A stretch of 9,168 bases of DNA from Candidatus Methanophagales archaeon. GTDB taxonomy: Archaea; Halobacteriota; Syntropharchaeia; Alkanophagales; Methanospirareceae. The DNA lies in the NCBI GenBank assembly GCA_030621535.1, contig JAUXHM010000034.1, positions 1 through 9,168 of the forward strand, read 5' to 3'. Shown one piece after another: positions 32 through 8,586 of the stretch. The position numbers were made by a program, and so were the translations under genes. The notes beneath the pieces are model-generated. The model made no database searches, was not told the DNA's origin, and saw only the letters and a program-made list of their open reading frames with translations. How positions within the stretch are numbered: position 1 is the stretch's first letter; every line of letters starts with the position of its first letter.

Positions 32-1234
32 TTAGACTGTGCCTCGCTCCGATAAGTCATGCACAGGACAGATATATGTTAAATTGTCTATCATCATTCG
101 TGTCTTACAACCACCGCATACACGCTGATATTCGCAATCAGCACACCACGACGCACTTTCGCCGTGTTCAAACTTGCTATCTCTTAACCTTTCCCGGACT
201 TTATCAAGCCCTTCTTCACGCACGTTGCCCATCCGAACGGGAATAAAGGGACATGCCCATACGTCCCCGTTTGGTTTGATGTACATCATTCCCTTATCCG
301 CTAAACAACCGCCGACGAAACGCCCTAAGAACCGTATAAGTCGCCTGTTATGTATCCCACGACGTTGAAGTGCGTATGCCCAGTATTCGGGAGCCGCAAC
401 AGGAATTATTATCGCTCGTACCTCACGCTGCTTATTGAGTATCAAGTCCAGAAGTGCTTTAAAATCTTCTCTTCCGAGTGCATAATCCTGTATTTCCTCC
501 CCTCTGCCAAGAGGAACGAAATTGTAGATGAAATAAGAATAAACACCTATCTCGCTGCCATAATCTATGATTCGTTCAATCTCATCGAAATTGCGTTTGG
601 TTGCCACGGTATTCAGGTGTAAATAAAGGTTTTCCGCAACGCAATTCTCTATCCCCGTAATCGCGGCATCATAAGCACCCTCAACACCGCGGATACTATC
701 GTGTATCTCGGGATTCATTCCGTCCAGACCTATTACCACACCAACCTTATATCTCCTCAGCAACTTTGCAACTTCTTTCGTTATCAGCGTTCCATTTGTC
801 GCTATAAAGACGGTGAACCTTTTGGATCTGGCGTACGCTATCAGCTCAAAAAGGTCTTTACGTAACAAGGGCTCACCACCAGTGAATACGAATGTCCGAA
901 TGCCTAACGTAGCAATCTGGTCTATCAATGCCTTGCCTTCTTCTGTTGTTAGTTCTTTATAAGTCGCTTCTCCGCCGAACGCATGGCAGTGGACGCACTT
1001 TAGGTTACACTCGCCTGTCATCTCCCATACCACATGCGGATTCACACCGAAGCAGCAAATCTGTTCCGCACCCGCACCTGCGTGGAGGAGATTTTGTAAC
1101 TGCATCGCCCAGCGAAGAAAAGCCCGTTTATTCCAGCCGGTGAGCCATGCATATAGCATAATCGTGACCGCTTGTTTCACCATCAAATGCGGTGGATTAT
1201 AAAACGGCTTCACCCTAAACCTGAATTTTTCCAT
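32..1234 (-). CDS. Radical SAM/SPASM domain protein
   Basis: A 400-residue cytoplasmic enzyme expected to cleave S-adenosylmethionine with a 4Fe-4S cluster. The canonical CxxxCxxC is at Cys76, Cys80 and Cys83 (ECNLKCVHC), followed by the GGEP SAM-binding motif at 119-122. The C-terminus is a SPASM domain with seven cysteines (310, 328, 364, 367, 373, 376, 389) that should bind auxiliary clusters; the CxxCxxxxxCxxC block is at 364-376. Family members include PqqE, AhbC/AhbD haem enzymes and peptide-modifying maturases. Sequence alone does not say which substrate this one uses. An N-terminal segment of about 65 residues before the core is basic/aromatic and may touch a membrane or partner. The ATG at 1234 is preceded by GGGAGAAGAG, a good ribosome-binding site, inside the 17-nt gap after the prenyltransferase stop. 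The two genes are therefore almost certainly co-transcribed, and a role in making or modifying a prenylated cofactor is a reasonable inference. Confidence 0.93.
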   Translation of the reverse strand: MEKFRFRVKPFYNPPHLMVKQAVTIMLYAWLTGWNKRAFLRWAMQLQNLLHAGAGAEQICCFGVNPHVVWEMTGECNLKCVHCHAFGGEATYKELTTEEGKALIDQIATLGIRTFVFTGGEPLLRKDLFELIAYARSKRFTVFIATNGTLITKEVAKLLRRYKVGVVIGLDGMNPEIHDSIRGVEGAYDAAITGIENCVAENLYLHLNTVATKRNFDEIERIIDYGSEIGVYSYFIYNFVPLGRGEEIQDYALGREDFKALLDLILNKQREVRAIIIPVAAPEYWAYALQRRGIHNRRLIRFLGRFVGGCLADKGMMYIKPNGDVWACPFIPVRMGNVREEGLDKVRERLRDSKFEHGESASWCADCEYQRVCGGCKTRMMIDNLTYICPVHDLSERGTV

Positions 1235-1251: not shown

Positions 1252-2199
1252 TTATCCCAGCGAGACAACAAATCCCCGGAGAAGGAAGATACCTATAAGT
1301 GCCATAAGTATAAAGAGCATTCCTATGAAGCCATTCTTGCATATATCTTCCAACTCGTCCTTGTTCCTCCATTTACCCTTGGTCATCGGGATTAAACTCC
1401 GTAGCAAGAAGAAAGCAGGTAACAGAAGCAGCAGAACTTCCAGTCCGTTAATTATAAATATGACGGGAACAAACAGGATTAAGCTGCATACCGTCAGTAA
1501 GATATAAACAGGTGCCATCGCCTCTCGTCCAAAGATGACTACAAGATTTCTCCTGTTCACTGCTACATCCGCATCGTAATCGGGAAATTCGCGAATTATC
1601 TTCAGTGCCGGCACATCTACCATCCATGGAAGCGCAACGATAAGAGGAAGCCAGCTAAATCCTTGCTGAACGTAATAACCTGCAAATATGGGAATAGTAA
1701 ACCCAATACCCATAAGTACCTCGCCAAAGCCGCGATAAGATGCTTTTATCGGTGGTGCCGTATAGAACCAGCCGCCAAGAATCCCGAGTATGACGAAAGG
1801 AAGTGTTAATACGCCTGTATTAAGGTAGAACTGTAATAGTACGCCAAGAGGAATTGTAGCGACAAAGAAGAGTATAGATGCAATTAGAACTTGCTTTCTT
1901 GGTAAAAGCCCCTCTACTAATACTCTCGTGCCCCCGGTTGTTGTGACGCCTACTCTATCGCCACCAACACGTTCCTTATTTATCCTGTCCGTTTCATAGT
2001 CGAAATACTCGTTCGACATGAATGTCCCATTCGTTATAAAATAGGTTATAACAATTGAAACAGCAAATACACGCCAATCTATTGCCCCTGCTCCTGCTCC
2101 CGACCATGCGATGGCGGTCCCGAGTAAGAAAGGGAAGAATATCGTCGGATGCTTATGCAGTTCTTGAATCTTTATCCACGCGATTAATTTATTGCCCAT
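1252..2199 (-). CDS. UbiA/MenA-family prenyltransferase (copy 1)
   Basis: An integral membrane enzyme expected to move a polyprenyl chain from its diphosphate to an aromatic or other acceptor. Starting at the ATG at 2199 the protein has 315 residues, normal for the family, and is hydrophobic throughout with about eight or nine membrane segments. The first Mg-diphosphate motif is intact (NEYFDYETD, residues 63-71, form NxxxDxxxD), as is the second (PDYDAD, 206-211, followed by NRRNL). The first motif and the following TGGTRVLVEGLL segment resemble MenA-type enzymes, so a naphthoate-like acceptor is possible but unproven. The frame stays open upstream to 2289, but the added 30 residues are encoded by a repeat also found in intergenic DNA near 5060. 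A minus-strand TATA (TTTATATG, 2222-2229) sits about 26 nt before 2199. Alignment with copy 2 also begins here. The radical SAM gene follows after 17 nt. Confidence 0.92.
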   Translation of the reverse strand: MGNKLIAWIKIQELHKHPTIFFPFLLGTAIAWSGAGAGAIDWRVFAVSIVITYFITNGTFMSNEYFDYETDRINKERVGGDRVGVTTTGGTRVLVEGLLPRKQVLIASILFFVATIPLGVLLQFYLNTGVLTLPFVILGILGGWFYTAPPIKASYRGFGEVLMGIGFTIPIFAGYYVQQGFSWLPLIVALPWMVDVPALKIIREFPDYDADVAVNRRNLVVIFGREAMAPVYILLTVCSLILFVPVIFIINGLEVLLLLLPAFFLLRSLIPMTKGKWRNKDELEDICKNGFIGMLFILMALIGIFLLRGFVVSLG

Positions 2200-2221
2200 A
2201 TCTTGCGATAGTTTGTGCAAA

Positions 2222-2229
2222 CATATAAA
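2222..2229 (-). promoter_or_regulatory. TATA box of prenyltransferase copy 1, probably leaderless
   Basis: TTTATATG on the minus strand is centred about 26 nt upstream of the ATG at 2199. In archaea that spacing puts transcription initiation at or within a few bases of the start codon. No Shine-Dalgarno sequence is visible in the 25 nt before this ATG, which fits a leaderless message. The assignment rests on spacing only. Confidence 0.5.
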
Positions 2230-2230
2230 T

Positions 2231-2386
2231 AATGTCATTTCAAAAATTAGTAACCACAAGATTACACAGATTTTCACAAGAAAGGACATATCAAGAAGTC
2301 TAAATTGTTTCTTCTCTTTCTGATCTCTGGTCTTGTGTTAATCTTGTGAAATCTCGTGGTTTTGCAATTTATTATCGGAATGACTA
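2231..2386. repeat. Element A: repeat with inverted ends (MITE-like)
   Basis: The left end reads AATGTCATTTC...AGTAACCACAAGATTAC. The right end reads GAAATCTCGTGGTT...CGGAATGACTAT, an imperfect reverse complement of the left (ACCAC/GTGGT and GTCATT/AATGAC match). The right 55 bases recur almost unchanged at 3889-3949 in element B, apart from a short insertion. The inner left arm recurs near 5060. There is no coding capacity. It fills the gap between the MFS gene and prenyltransferase copy 1. It resembles a small non-autonomous inverted-repeat element, but no transposase partner is visible. Confidence 0.6.
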
Positions 2387-4081: not shown

Positions 4082-5050
4082 ATGAACCTTAATAAGGATA
4101 TGTTATCGGGTTGGGTGGAGCTTTCCGGATTGCCCAAGTTCACAACCACATTGATTCCTTTTCTCCTGGGGGCGGTTTTAGCCTGGGCTGATGGATACGC
4201 CTTTGATGGCGTGGTGTTCGCAATCTCGCTGCTTGCGGTATTTCTACTAACCGATTTCTGTTTCGTGCTTAATGCGTGCAGTGTGTATGCGGATTTAAAG
4301 CACAAAGGGATTGATTTTGGTTATGTAGCGGGAACAACAAGCACGCTTCATTCTACTGCGGTAAGCGGGAGGTTCGATGCGCTCGTGAAGGGACGCATAT
4401 CGGTAAACCAGGCAGTTACCGGTGCCTACCTGTGCGCACTGGCTGCTTTTCCTCTCGGCGTGCTGCTGCATTTTTATTTCAATACCGGCGGTTTGACGTT
4501 GCTGCTGGGTCTCCTCGGCATATTCATTCCATACTCGTATTCAAGAGGACTGAGATTCTCTTACCACGGTCTGGGAGAAATAACCCTTACCGCAGGAGTG
4601 GGATGGCTGACGGTATTCAGTGGTTACTACTTGCAATCGCATCAGGTGAGCTGGCTACCTACCATCGTTGCTCTACCGCTGATAATAGACGCATTCAAGC
4701 TGAAATTAACGAGGGAAATTCCCGATTTCGACTGCGACCTCTCGATAGACCGCAGGAATCTGGCAATTCGGCTGGGTAAGGTCACGACCGTCCGTCTTTA
4801 TTTACCGTTGACTGTATGTTCCTGGCTTGCATTTATCCCTATTCTGTTCTTAGACGTTCCCCACATTGGGTTCGGTTTGTTAGCTATTCCCGTATTCTTC
4901 ACTGCAAAGAGCCTAATCGCGGTGCAGAGAGGCGATTGGAAAACCGCGGAAGGACTCAGCGCCATAACTAAAAATGCATTCACCGGTATGATACTGATTC
5001 CCGTTGCGCTTACCGGGATTTTTGTTCTTAAGATTGTGGCAGCTGTTTAG
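4082..5050 (+). CDS. UbiA-family prenyltransferase paralogue with altered first motif (copy 2)
   Basis: A 322-residue membrane protein clearly paralogous to the gene at 1252-2199: FPLGVLLHFYFNTGGLTL (123-140) and the stretch around LPTIVALP match closely, and both align end to end. The second Mg-diphosphate motif is intact (REIPDFDCDLSIDRRNL, 211-227). The first is not. Where copy 1 has NEYFDYETD, this protein has NACSVYADL (64-72): the first Asp is Val, the last is Leu, and only a displaced Asp71 remains. The loop after it is six residues longer. The reading frame is uninterrupted and other frames here hit stops, so this is substitution, not frameshift. It may use another acceptor, bind Mg differently, or be non-catalytic. 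An alternative start is Met7 (4100), which aligns with the copy 1 start. The gene stands alone on the plus strand, bounded by element C copies. Confidence 0.9.
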   Translation: MNLNKDMLSGWVELSGLPKFTTTLIPFLLGAVLAWADGYAFDGVVFAISLLAVFLLTDFCFVLNACSVYADLKHKGIDFGYVAGTTSTLHSTAVSGRFDALVKGRISVNQAVTGAYLCALAAFPLGVLLHFYFNTGGLTLLLGLLGIFIPYSYSRGLRFSYHGLGEITLTAGVGWLTVFSGYYLQSHQVSWLPTIVALPLIIDAFKLKLTREIPDFDCDLSIDRRNLAIRLGKVTTVRLYLPLTVCSWLAFIPILFLDVPHIGFGLLAIPVFFTAKSLIAVQRGDWKTAEGLSAITKNAFTGMILIPVALTGIFVLKIVAAV

Positions 5051-6578: not shown

Positions 6579-6657
6579 TTATTCCAGCATAATCGCAGGT
6601 ATCCAGTCATTATATTTTCTGCCATTGGCATCCGTGAACTCGATGCATGTGATTATT
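6579..6657 (-). pseudogene. Possible coding remnant 3' of the surface protein, in another frame
   Basis: Read in a different frame from the surface protein, the minus strand from about 6657 to the TAA at 6579-6581 encodes EIITCIEFTDANGRKYNDW followed by IPAIMLE and a stop. The composition is protein-like rather than random, and the frame stays open back into the end of the surface-protein gene. No start codon or ribosome-binding site of its own is evident. It could be the tail of a lost gene, or a downstream segment separated from the upstream gene by a frameshift. Weakly supported. Confidence 0.25.
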
Positions 6658-7447
6658 TCACCTTCCTTCGCTTGATTAAATATGCCACCAATAATAATCC
6701 AACAATTACGAATGGAACTTCAAATCCGGGTGGTTGTGGTGTTGGTGTAGTCTCAGGTTTAATATCACTTTTTGTTTGGACGTTCGGATCGTAGGGTGCA
6801 TAATCGTATCTATCCGGTACTCCATCGCCGTCTGAGTCTACAAGTGTTGGCGTTGGCGAAGGAGAAGAAATTGGACTCAGTGTTGGTGTGTGCATAGGTG
6901 CTGGTGTATAGACCGGAGGATGTGAGGGTGTTTGAGTTGGTGTAGGACTTGGTGTTGATGTTGGTGTTGGAGTTGAGCTTGGTGTAGGCTGTATCGGCGT
7001 TGGTGTGGGGGTTGTGGTTACAGCTATACAATACTGGTCTTCACCCGGTGGATAGCCATCGTGCTCAGCCATCCAAGTTATATCGTCTAAATCTATATCA
7101 TTGTTACCATTAGCTGCTTTTAACTCTGCATACGTGTAATTTGACGAATTTATTATGATATAATCGACAACCATTGGTTCAGTCAAGCGATTTATAAGCT
7201 TCACCGTACCTCCTGTTTCGACAGTTGTTTCTCCGTCTTTGTCTACTCGTGTCCATGTTAGCTCAGAATACACGAAACAACCTCCGATTCCAAAGTTTTC
7301 TGCAATGTATCGCTTTCCCGCTTCGGTTAAATCTGGTGATGCACTTGCTATCACAACGAAATTTGCTAAAACTAATCCTAAAATTATGACTAATACCAGC
7401 GTTTTTTTCACGTTGAATCTTCTCATTTCATTGTTTTTTATTTTCAT
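6653..7447 (-). CDS. Secreted surface protein with Pro/Thr linker and PGF-CTERM tail
   Basis: A 264-residue exported protein. It has a basic N-terminus and hydrophobic signal segment (about 16-35) with a likely cut after ASA near 37. A globular domain follows (38-140) with two cysteines (57, 140) that could pair. A Thr/Pro/Ser-rich linker (about 144-201), a good O-glycosylation target, comes next. The acidic DSDGDGVPDRYDY (204-216) is a thrombospondin type-3-like calcium loop. The tail is PGFEVPFVIVGLLLVAYL followed by KRRK (240-262). PGF, a membrane segment and basic residues together match the archaeosortase A (PGF-CTERM) signal, implying processing and lipid anchoring at the cell surface. 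I do not recognise the globular domain. The ATG at 7447 is chosen because GGGAGGGGG sits 7-8 nt upstream; the open frame to 7510 runs into the promoter. A TATA box lies at 7514-7522. Confidence 0.88.
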   Translation of the reverse strand: MKIKNNEMRRFNVKKTLVLVIILGLVLANFVVIASASPDLTEAGKRYIAENFGIGGCFVYSELTWTRVDKDGETTVETGGTVKLINRLTEPMVVDYIIINSSNYTYAELKAANGNNDIDLDDITWMAEHDGYPPGEDQYCIAVTTTPTPTPIQPTPSSTPTPTSTPSPTPTQTPSHPPVYTPAPMHTPTLSPISSPSPTPTLVDSDGDGVPDRYDYAPYDPNVQTKSDIKPETTPTPQPPGFEVPFVIVGLLLVAYLIKRRKVK

Positions 7448-7491
7448 TTTTATAACCCCCTCCCTTTTTATCACCCTTTGTTTTATTCTAT

Positions 7492-7527
7492 TTTTATCGC
7501 TGGTATTCAATCCTTATAAATTTTTTG
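7492..7527 (-). promoter_or_regulatory. Shared 36-bp promoter module, copy 1 (surface protein)
   Basis: This block recurs at 9084-9119 with 34 of 36 identical positions. On the minus strand it reads as an A/T run, the TATA box AATTTATAA (7514-7522) and then GATTGAATACCAGCGATAAA. The expected start of transcription is near 7490, leaving a leader of about 43 nt that carries the GGGAGGGGG ribosome-binding site. The conserved bases between TATA and the start site could be an operator for a common regulator. Confidence 0.65.
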
Positions 7528-7638: not shown

Positions 7639-8586
7639 ATGTCTAACTGGAAACCACTAAGAATGTTCATTTCACATTCAAGATTAGATAAAAGAGAGAT
7701 CAATACGATTCAAAAGTTTTTACCGCCAAGATCAATTATTCCTTATGTTTCTGAGACTACGTTCACTGGTAGACATTTATTAGATAAAATTAAAAAAGAA
7801 ATGATTAACTGTGGGGCATTTCTACTATTATGGACCGGACATACCGCAGATGTTGAGAAAATGATGAATTATCACACTAATCACCGCAATAACGAACCAA
7901 AAACAAGAGATATAATCAATTTTGAATTAGGTCTTGCTTCGTTTTTGAATATTCCGATTTTTGTAATAAAAAGGGATTCGACATTACCTTGGTATGTTTC
8001 TTCATTAACAACGTATGAAGTAATAAATGGGGACTCTTTAGAGGATGCTTTAAATAAAATTGATTTTTCCGAATTTCAAGACAATATTACTGTTGAGTTT
8101 CCACCTAGAAGTTCATTCAAGCATGGAAAAAGGAAGAGTGACAATGAACTTGTGATGAAAGATGGATTAATAGAATTTCCAGAAGATTATCCGATAAAAA
8201 AAGGTTGTACAGGAACAATCCATTTTGAAATTTCAAATAGGATGAAATTCTTAGTGAGGGACTTCCGATTATATTTAGATATTCCAAATCAGCTTGTAAT
8301 AGATTTTGATGAAGGAGATGTTGGAAGAGGCAGTCAAAAAAATGACATCTTTTGGATGAGAAAAACACCAAGTAATCGAGATGGCTACTATAGAATAAAA
8401 TTAATTTATCCCTCTCTGCCCGCTGAAGAAACAATTGCCTTAGAACTTGCAATTCGTGATATAAAGACCAAAAGAAGCGAGGAATTGGGTAATATATTTT
8501 GTTCAATTCAAGCGGATAATATTATTAGACGTGAAAAAGAAATTGAATTACGAATTCGACCAGCCGAAAGCCTCAAAAGTGGATGA
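7639..8586 (+). CDS. TIR-domain protein with C-terminal beta-rich domain
   Basis: A 315-residue soluble protein. Residues 6-135 form a TIR domain: box 1 is MFISHSRLDK (9-18), the central hydrophobic strand is GAFLLLWTG (59-67), and the helix NFELGLA (94-100) carries the Glu96 expected to be catalytic in NAD-cleaving TIR proteins. It is followed by strand IPIFVI. Residues about 150-310 alternate hydrophobic strands (TGTIHFEISN, FRLYLDIP, YYRIKLIYPSLPAEE, KEIELRI) and look like an immunoglobulin-like beta-sandwich of no family I can name. There is no signal peptide. Many prokaryotic TIR proteins are NADases of antiviral defence, with a sensor in the second domain. That role here is inferred, and no ThsA-like or other partner is in the window. 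Base and codon use is visibly more A/T-rich than in the genes to the left, suggesting transfer. The start is fixed by GGAGG six bases upstream. Confidence 0.85.
   Translation: MSNWKPLRMFISHSRLDKREINTIQKFLPPRSIIPYVSETTFTGRHLLDKIKKEMINCGAFLLLWTGHTADVEKMMNYHTNHRNNEPKTRDIINFELGLASFLNIPIFVIKRDSTLPWYVSSLTTYEVINGDSLEDALNKIDFSEFQDNITVEFPPRSSFKHGKRKSDNELVMKDGLIEFPEDYPIKKGCTGTIHFEISNRMKFLVRDFRLYLDIPNQLVIDFDEGDVGRGSQKNDIFWMRKTPSNRDGYYRIKLIYPSLPAEETIALELAIRDIKTKRSEELGNIFCSIQADNIIRREKEIELRIRPAESLKSG

Follow-up and report, generated by a model that had tools for sequence, protein, structure and literature searches.

Two prenyltransferase genes in an ANME-1 contig

The stretch of DNA analysed here (the window, 9,168 nt) belongs to contig 15 of a draft ANME-1 (Methanophagales) genome (G000) that is 60.6% complete. 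It contains two genes of the UbiA prenyltransferase family, called here copy 1 (c1) and copy 2 (c2), whose products are 38% identical across 323 aligned columns (BLASTP); their positions and those of the c2 residues discussed below are collected in Table 1. Elsewhere in the window, a 315-aa protein (7639-8586, +), perhaps encoded by a defence gene, weakly resembles the CAP12/Pycsar TIR-like family (21.0 bits, below the cut-off of 24.7), and a protein rich in proline and threonine (6653-7510, -) ends in a C-terminal PGF-CTERM sorting signal.

Table 1. Coordinates of the genes and residues considered in the window
Feature	Position	Strand	Basis or conservation
Radical SAM/SPASM protein	32..1234	-	Radical SAM gene often accompanies c1 in related loci
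c1, canonical UbiA paralogue; NEYFDYETD at 1987-2013	1252..2289	-	Model pLDDT 89.8
c2, UbiA-family prenyltransferase, 322 aa	4082..5050	+	Intact ORF
Predicted TM helix 2 of c2 (residues 43-74), unbroken through motif I	4208..4303	+	DSSP on model
Asn64, at i-7 from Asp71, higher than the usual Asn place by about one helical turn	4271..4273	+	115/115 (best 120 of 172 matches)
Ser67, Mg-ligand Asn place (i-4), equivalent to UBIAD1 N102 and AfUbiA N68	4280..4282	+	phmmer/hmmsearch
Asp71, first Asp of motif I, equivalent to UBIAD1 D106, AfUbiA D72 and c1 D97	4292..4294	+	114/115 (best 120 of 172 matches)
Asp78, displaced second Asp, pairs with UBIAD1 D112	4313..4315	+	90/115 (best 120 of 172 matches); not universal
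Tyr153-Ser154, equivalent to AfUbiA Y139-S140 and UBIAD1 Y174-T175	4538..4543	+	Y153 116/116 (best 120 of 172 matches); S154 invariant in alignment A1
Motif II DFDCD (Asp215, Asp219)	4724..4738	+	Each 116/116 (best 120 of 172 matches)

Membership of c2 in the UbiA superfamily is indicated by its PF01040 score (61.6 bits against a Pfam cut-off of 34.2) and by its predicted structure, which has the UbiA fold and is a confident prediction. Against models of individual enzymes, c2 scored below the cut-off for MenA (TIGR00751, 49.3 against the NCBIfam cut-off of 102.15) and for the best PRK06080 model (57.1 against 264), and no MqnP model of NCBIfam was among the 9 families that c2 matched at E 0.001. 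Sequence searches of the PDB matched UBIAD1 alone (8djk; E 2.7e-11, hmmsearch with 65 sequences), a menaquinone-4 synthase whose structure is that of the hamster N102S variant, so that the solved protein itself carries Ser at the aligned place. Foldseek with the c2 model gave a different order, ranking DGGGP synthase and AfUbiA above UBIAD1, and VIA placed UBIAD1 at the top (24.2) in a tie with DGGGP synthase (23.3).

The first Asp-rich motif of c2

An earlier note on this DNA, made from the sequence alone, placed residues 64-72 of c2 (NACSVYADL, bases 4271-4297, +) under the NEYFDYETD of c1 and concluded that c2 had lost the aspartates of the first motif. Both sequences, and the intact frame of c2, were confirmed. 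The gapless reading, in which N64 stands for the N of NEYFD and V68 for its D, was rejected because BLASTP, MAFFT, hhalign (comparing profiles of 65 c2-type (A1) and 61 c1-type (A2) sequences), phmmer and hmmsearch (both aligned against UBIAD1 8djk) all shift the pairing by three residues and match Asp71 of c2 with the first motif-I Asp, D97 in c1. In BLASTP, the distance from the conserved start of TM2 to the first Asp is three residues longer in c2 than in c1. The extra residues fall between N64 and D71 according to MAFFT, hhalign and BLASTP, and further upstream according to phmmer and hmmsearch against UBIAD1, which thereby pair Ser67 with UBIAD1 residue 102. The placement of the insertion is ambiguous on sequence grounds; Ser67 is four residues before Asp71 under either placement. 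Since the predicted TM2 helix is unbroken, the residue at i-4 from Asp71, which is the place of the Asn in NxxxD, would be Ser67. As read from these alignments, the real change in c2 is the replacement of the NxxxD Asn, with Ser67 at i-4 and Asn64 at i-7: c2 lacks the Mg-ligand Asn of motif I (NDxxDxxxD/NxxxD) and retains the DxxxD of motif II and the TM4 Tyr.

Conservation was counted over the c2 of the window and P0001-P0115, taken from the best 120 of 172 matches, with the c1-like P0116-P0120 left out; one sequence (P0114) has no motif region, so counts in this region are out of 115 and not 116. Because about 25 of the 116 rows share 96% identity or more with c2, the counts are not independent, and in the thinned alignment A1 (65 rows) N64 is invariant and S67 and D71 each reach at least 90%. 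Among the 115 sequences from the best 120 of 172 matches, position 67 is occupied by S in 111, G in 2, A in 1, C in 1 and N in none; a single N is the sole exception at D71, and Y69 is found in 114. The aspartates of the first motif are hence not missing. The suggestion that an Asp ligand had been displaced stands in so far as Asp71 can be the motif Asp; Asp78, the other residue proposed, is only partly kept. The retention of motif II (PDFDCD...DRRNL) was borne out, and both its Asp residues are present in every sequence counted (Table 1).

Other differences surround the altered motif. The differences fixed between c2 and canonical enzymes (a group from which L096 and L107 were omitted) are F20, L63, A65, S67, T92, R97 and V173, of which R97 may reflect an alignment shift. 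The diphosphate-binding Lys181 of UBIAD1 pairs with Ser160 of c2, and Arg158 occupies the place of the corresponding Lys of c1, with a basic residue there in 108 of 116 sequences (from the best 120 of 172 matches). Loop 2-3 (HSTAxSGRF) is specific to the c2 clade and unlike that of c1.

Studies of known enzymes show what the Asn at i-4 does. In AfUbiA, Mg is reported to be coordinated by N68 and D72 together with D198 and D202, D76 being too distant for direct binding; the N68A change abolishes GPP binding, E. coli MenA altered at the equivalents of N68 or D72 is left with little or no function, the residue homologous to N68 in UBIAD1 is N102, and the conserved TM4 Tyr sits near the reacting C-O bond (all from PMC4106721). 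In UBIAD1, whose motif is given as N102TYYDFSKG in PMC9314443, N102 is described as the residue most frequently altered in families with Schnyder corneal dystrophy, and N102S as blunting activity and lowering GGPP affinity (PMC9314443, PMC4398444, PMC4374513). The UBIAD1 mutant data are not uniform: the statements of PMC4398444 on N102S name a loss of activity with GPP and GGPP and none with FPP, and the same source reports that D236A raises activity.

Ser67 of c2 corresponds to the same swap as in the human N102S variant of Schnyder dystrophy. UBIAD1 and c2 share the spacing N-xx-[N/S]-x-Y-x-D, the KG[I/V]D stretch that follows it and the Asp residues of motif II; wild-type UBIAD1 has Asn102, and a Ser at this place causes disease and reduces activity, whereas in c2 Ser is the natural residue. 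The context of motif II also differs (REIPDxxxD...RRNL in c2, NNTRDxxxD in UBIAD1). E. coli MenA, whose listed homologues were all close relatives and were used in a single small alignment, resembles c2 in having Asn at i-7, the motif-I Asp and a GWL[ST]Vxxx[YW]YLQ segment; in contrast to c2, it has the i-4 Asn as well, and its motif II is NNLRDxxxDxxxGKxTL. The c1 family has the motif II of c2 and an ordinary NEYFDYETD. The canonical Syntropharchaeia-type UbiA (P0116-P0118 and the protein of G056) likewise shares the motif II of c2 (RE[FI]PDxxxD...R[RK]NL), but its motif I is an ordinary SN[D/E]YFD[FY]xTD without the three-residue insertion.

These data raise the possibility that c2 is catalytically dead and acts as a prenyl-diphosphate sensor or scaffold, by analogy with UBIAD1 N102S, which stays bound to its partner. 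The blunted activity and lowered GGPP affinity caused by the identical change in UBIAD1 fit this idea, which we nevertheless consider improbable, as three Asp ligands and the catalytic Tyr-Ser pair are (nearly) invariant, a degree of conservation that a protein without activity would not require.

Distribution of c2, c1 and quinone genes

The occurrence of both copies was surveyed in 51 draft genomes of the family, 15 of which are good (completeness of 90% or more, contamination of 5% or less), with thresholds of at least 295 bits for full-length c2 and at least 195 bits for c1; the genomes being drafts, absences are weak evidence. Full-length c2 was found in 34 of the 51 genomes and in 14 of the 15 good ones (the match counted in G037 includes a TGA), with fragments in G006 and G038, while c1 was found in 14 and 2, respectively. 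Outside the family, c2 is present in G052, from a sister family of the same order, with the motif LNACSVYSD, and a relative 37-40% identical to c2 exists in G056 and G057, of the same class, that of G056 being canonical. One protein of the c2 clade (P0050) is filed under Desulfovibrio sp. S3730MH75; its contig probably belongs to ANME-1 and was mis-binned.

In an IQ-TREE phylogeny of 69 rows (proteins of at least 260 aa, the UBIAD1 stretch excepted, including 5 lipid-type rows), c2 forms a single clade of 36 rows with 100/100 support, and the residue counts given above uphold the proposal that the altered motif marks a conserved clade. This clade groups with the canonical P0116-P0118 and G056 proteins, its nearest neighbours in the tree (94/86; branch not starred), whereas the ANME-1 c1 proteins form a separate clade (98/93); E. 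coli MenA, L096 and L107 are on long branches and their placement is unsure. The c1 family also has relatives in bacteria, at about 50% identity. The canonical gene of G056 has an MqnC-like gene on one side and a radical SAM gene on the other. The simplest history would be that the lineage's own enzyme altered its motif and that c1 represents a second, canonical type.

Two readings lose most of their ground with this distribution. That c2 is a decaying copy or a sequencing error has next to no probability: the protein is full length in two thirds of the family genomes, no close orthologue with a normal motif was found among the 115 sequences from the best 120 of 172 matches, and dN/dS is 0.11-0.22 for c2 (8 pairs), compared with 0.15-0.28 for c1 (3 pairs). 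These ratios indicate that c2 is under purifying selection, in agreement with the constraint perceived in the earlier note. The same note had also envisaged c2 as a non-catalytic partner subunit of c1, and the genes are indeed adjacent in the window and in loci of the same genus. However, they are on different contigs in the six genomes of other genera that have both, and among the 14 good genomes in which c2 is full length, c1 went undetected in 12. Since c2 is this much more widespread, it cannot depend on c1, and a partner-subunit role was rejected as very improbable.

The acceptor of c2 has to be sought against the background of quinone metabolism in ANME-1. Futalosine-pathway genes and Fqo have led to the prediction of a quinone carrier (PMC9012536), and PMC5244752 reports futalosine-pathway genes while stating that genomes alone cannot separate menaquinone from methanophenazine. 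The classical Men pathway was rejected as a source of the acceptor, as the MenD model was above its cut-off in none of the 51 genomes. c1 is a candidate prenyltransferase of the futalosine route: in four genomes its orthologues and the radical SAM gene adjoin an MqnA/D-type gene, and in a fifth a fragment of c1 adjoins a complete mqn cluster (loci L073, L074, L075, L076 and L079 for the five).

Four of the 15 good genomes (G009, G010, G026 and G047) bear on the role of c2. Each contains exactly two UbiA proteins by Pfam, c2 and one of the lipid-type group (ORFs shorter than 220 aa were omitted from this grouping), along with MqnC above the cut-off and two or three MqnA/D-type matches. Because c2 is the sole UbiA besides the lipid-type protein and mqn genes are present, c2 is the likeliest candidate to prenylate the quinone head in these genomes. 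The absence of any further UbiA also argues against a catalytically dead c2. The lipid-type assignment is one of similarity: for the G009 protein the best solved relative is DGGGP synthase (E 3.3e-21), and for the group a general 'prenyltransferase' model of NCBIfam scores highest and that of DGGGP synthase next, each below its cut-off. In G048 and G049 the lipid-type protein adjoins an MqnA/D-type gene, and the two proteins may have swapped roles.

Other genomes point away from the futalosine route. c2 is present without MqnC above the cut-off or an MqnA/D match in G001, G004, G012, G015 and G016, the last of which (95% complete) has one MqnA/D match of 48.5 bits, and in G052 it is present with no MqnA/D match. 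Exactly three of the 51 genomes (G001, G015 and G016), all without clear MqnA/D genes, encode another MenA-like UbiA, possibly as a real replacement of the redox-lipid pathway; the persistence of c2 in them favours a role not tied to the futalosine route. The MenA-like gene adjoins a tocopherol-cyclase-like gene (L133:8391-10470, L134:7071-9194 and L135:7111-9170), recognised by PF14249 in two loci and by 57-68% identity in the third. Around c2 itself, no conserved quinone operon emerged from 25 loci (of which 22 are distinct, each of the pairs L007/L054, L008/L055 and L011/L060 covering a single stretch), where representatives of recurrent groups were annotated and proved to be mostly housekeeping genes. 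Among the neighbours, an AIR-synthase/ThiL/SelD-like gene directly precedes c2 in the same orientation in two genomes (L070:7998-10390 and L071:8189-10503), and a TIGR03169-like oxidoreductase, of a family named for its position N-terminal to SelD, adjoins c2 in 7 of the 22 distinct loci.

c2 could accordingly be an active UbiA prenyltransferase that uses another acceptor or donor, for example for a different redox lipid, rather than a futalosine-derived quinone. The genomes with c2 and no clear mqn genes, the lack of a quinone operon, the clade-specific loop 2-3 and the choice between menaquinone and methanophenazine left undecided in PMC5244752 are compatible with this reading, which we regard as unlikely though worth serious attention. 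On the other side, the one relative of solved structure that sequence searches identify prenylates naphthoquinones, the four good mqn-bearing genomes show no UbiA beyond the lipid-type group, and incompleteness alone could explain the drafts without mqn genes: PF02621 has no match in 6 of the 51, and about 8 of 51 would be expected to miss any single locus (hand sum of completeness).

A probable prenyltransferase with serine at the ligand position

Taken together, the kept catalytic residues, the purifying selection, UBIAD1 as the sole PDB relative by sequence, the tree and the UbiA count of four genomes suggest that c2 is active as an aromatic (quinone) prenyltransferase and that its Mg-diphosphate site is altered, with Asp71 kept and Ser67 replacing the Mg-ligand Asn; we give this reading a probability of about 0.5. 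Counting against it are the impairment of the Asn mutants of AfUbiA, MenA and UBIAD1, the five family genomes and G052 without clear mqn genes, the mostly housekeeping neighbours of c2, the MenA score below the cut-off, the fact that c1, with its normal motif, is the copy beside mqn genes, the failure of Foldseek and VIA to single out UBIAD1, and Ser160 at the place of Lys181.

With slightly more reserve, we propose that the order comprising ANME-1 and Alkanophaga has a working prenyltransferase without the Mg-ligand Asn on which the UbiA enzymes tested proved to depend, with an inserted turn, Ser at the ligand place and Asn one turn up, as a natural counterpart of UBIAD1 N102S. A three-residue (one-turn) insertion in TM2, relative to canonical relatives, would have displaced the original Asn (Asn64) by one turn and brought a small residue into its former position. 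The Mg ligands would then be Asp71, Asp215, Asp219 and water, with a weaker contact from Ser67 or Asn64, and the diphosphate would be held with the help of Lys19 and Arg158. The product may be the naphthoquinone predicted to serve as the partner of Fqo in ANME-1.

What remains, as far as sequences can tell, is a natural, clade-wide change of the Mg-ligand Asn to Ser, of which we found no published report for ANME-1 UbiA proteins in the open-licence literature. A clade living with Ser would reveal what makes this change tolerable, and with c2 the dependence of the two-Mg mechanism on the Asn ligand could be tested directly. It would also name a quinone prenyltransferase for ANME-1, a group in which menaquinone use is predicted on the accounts of PMC9012536 and PMC5244752.
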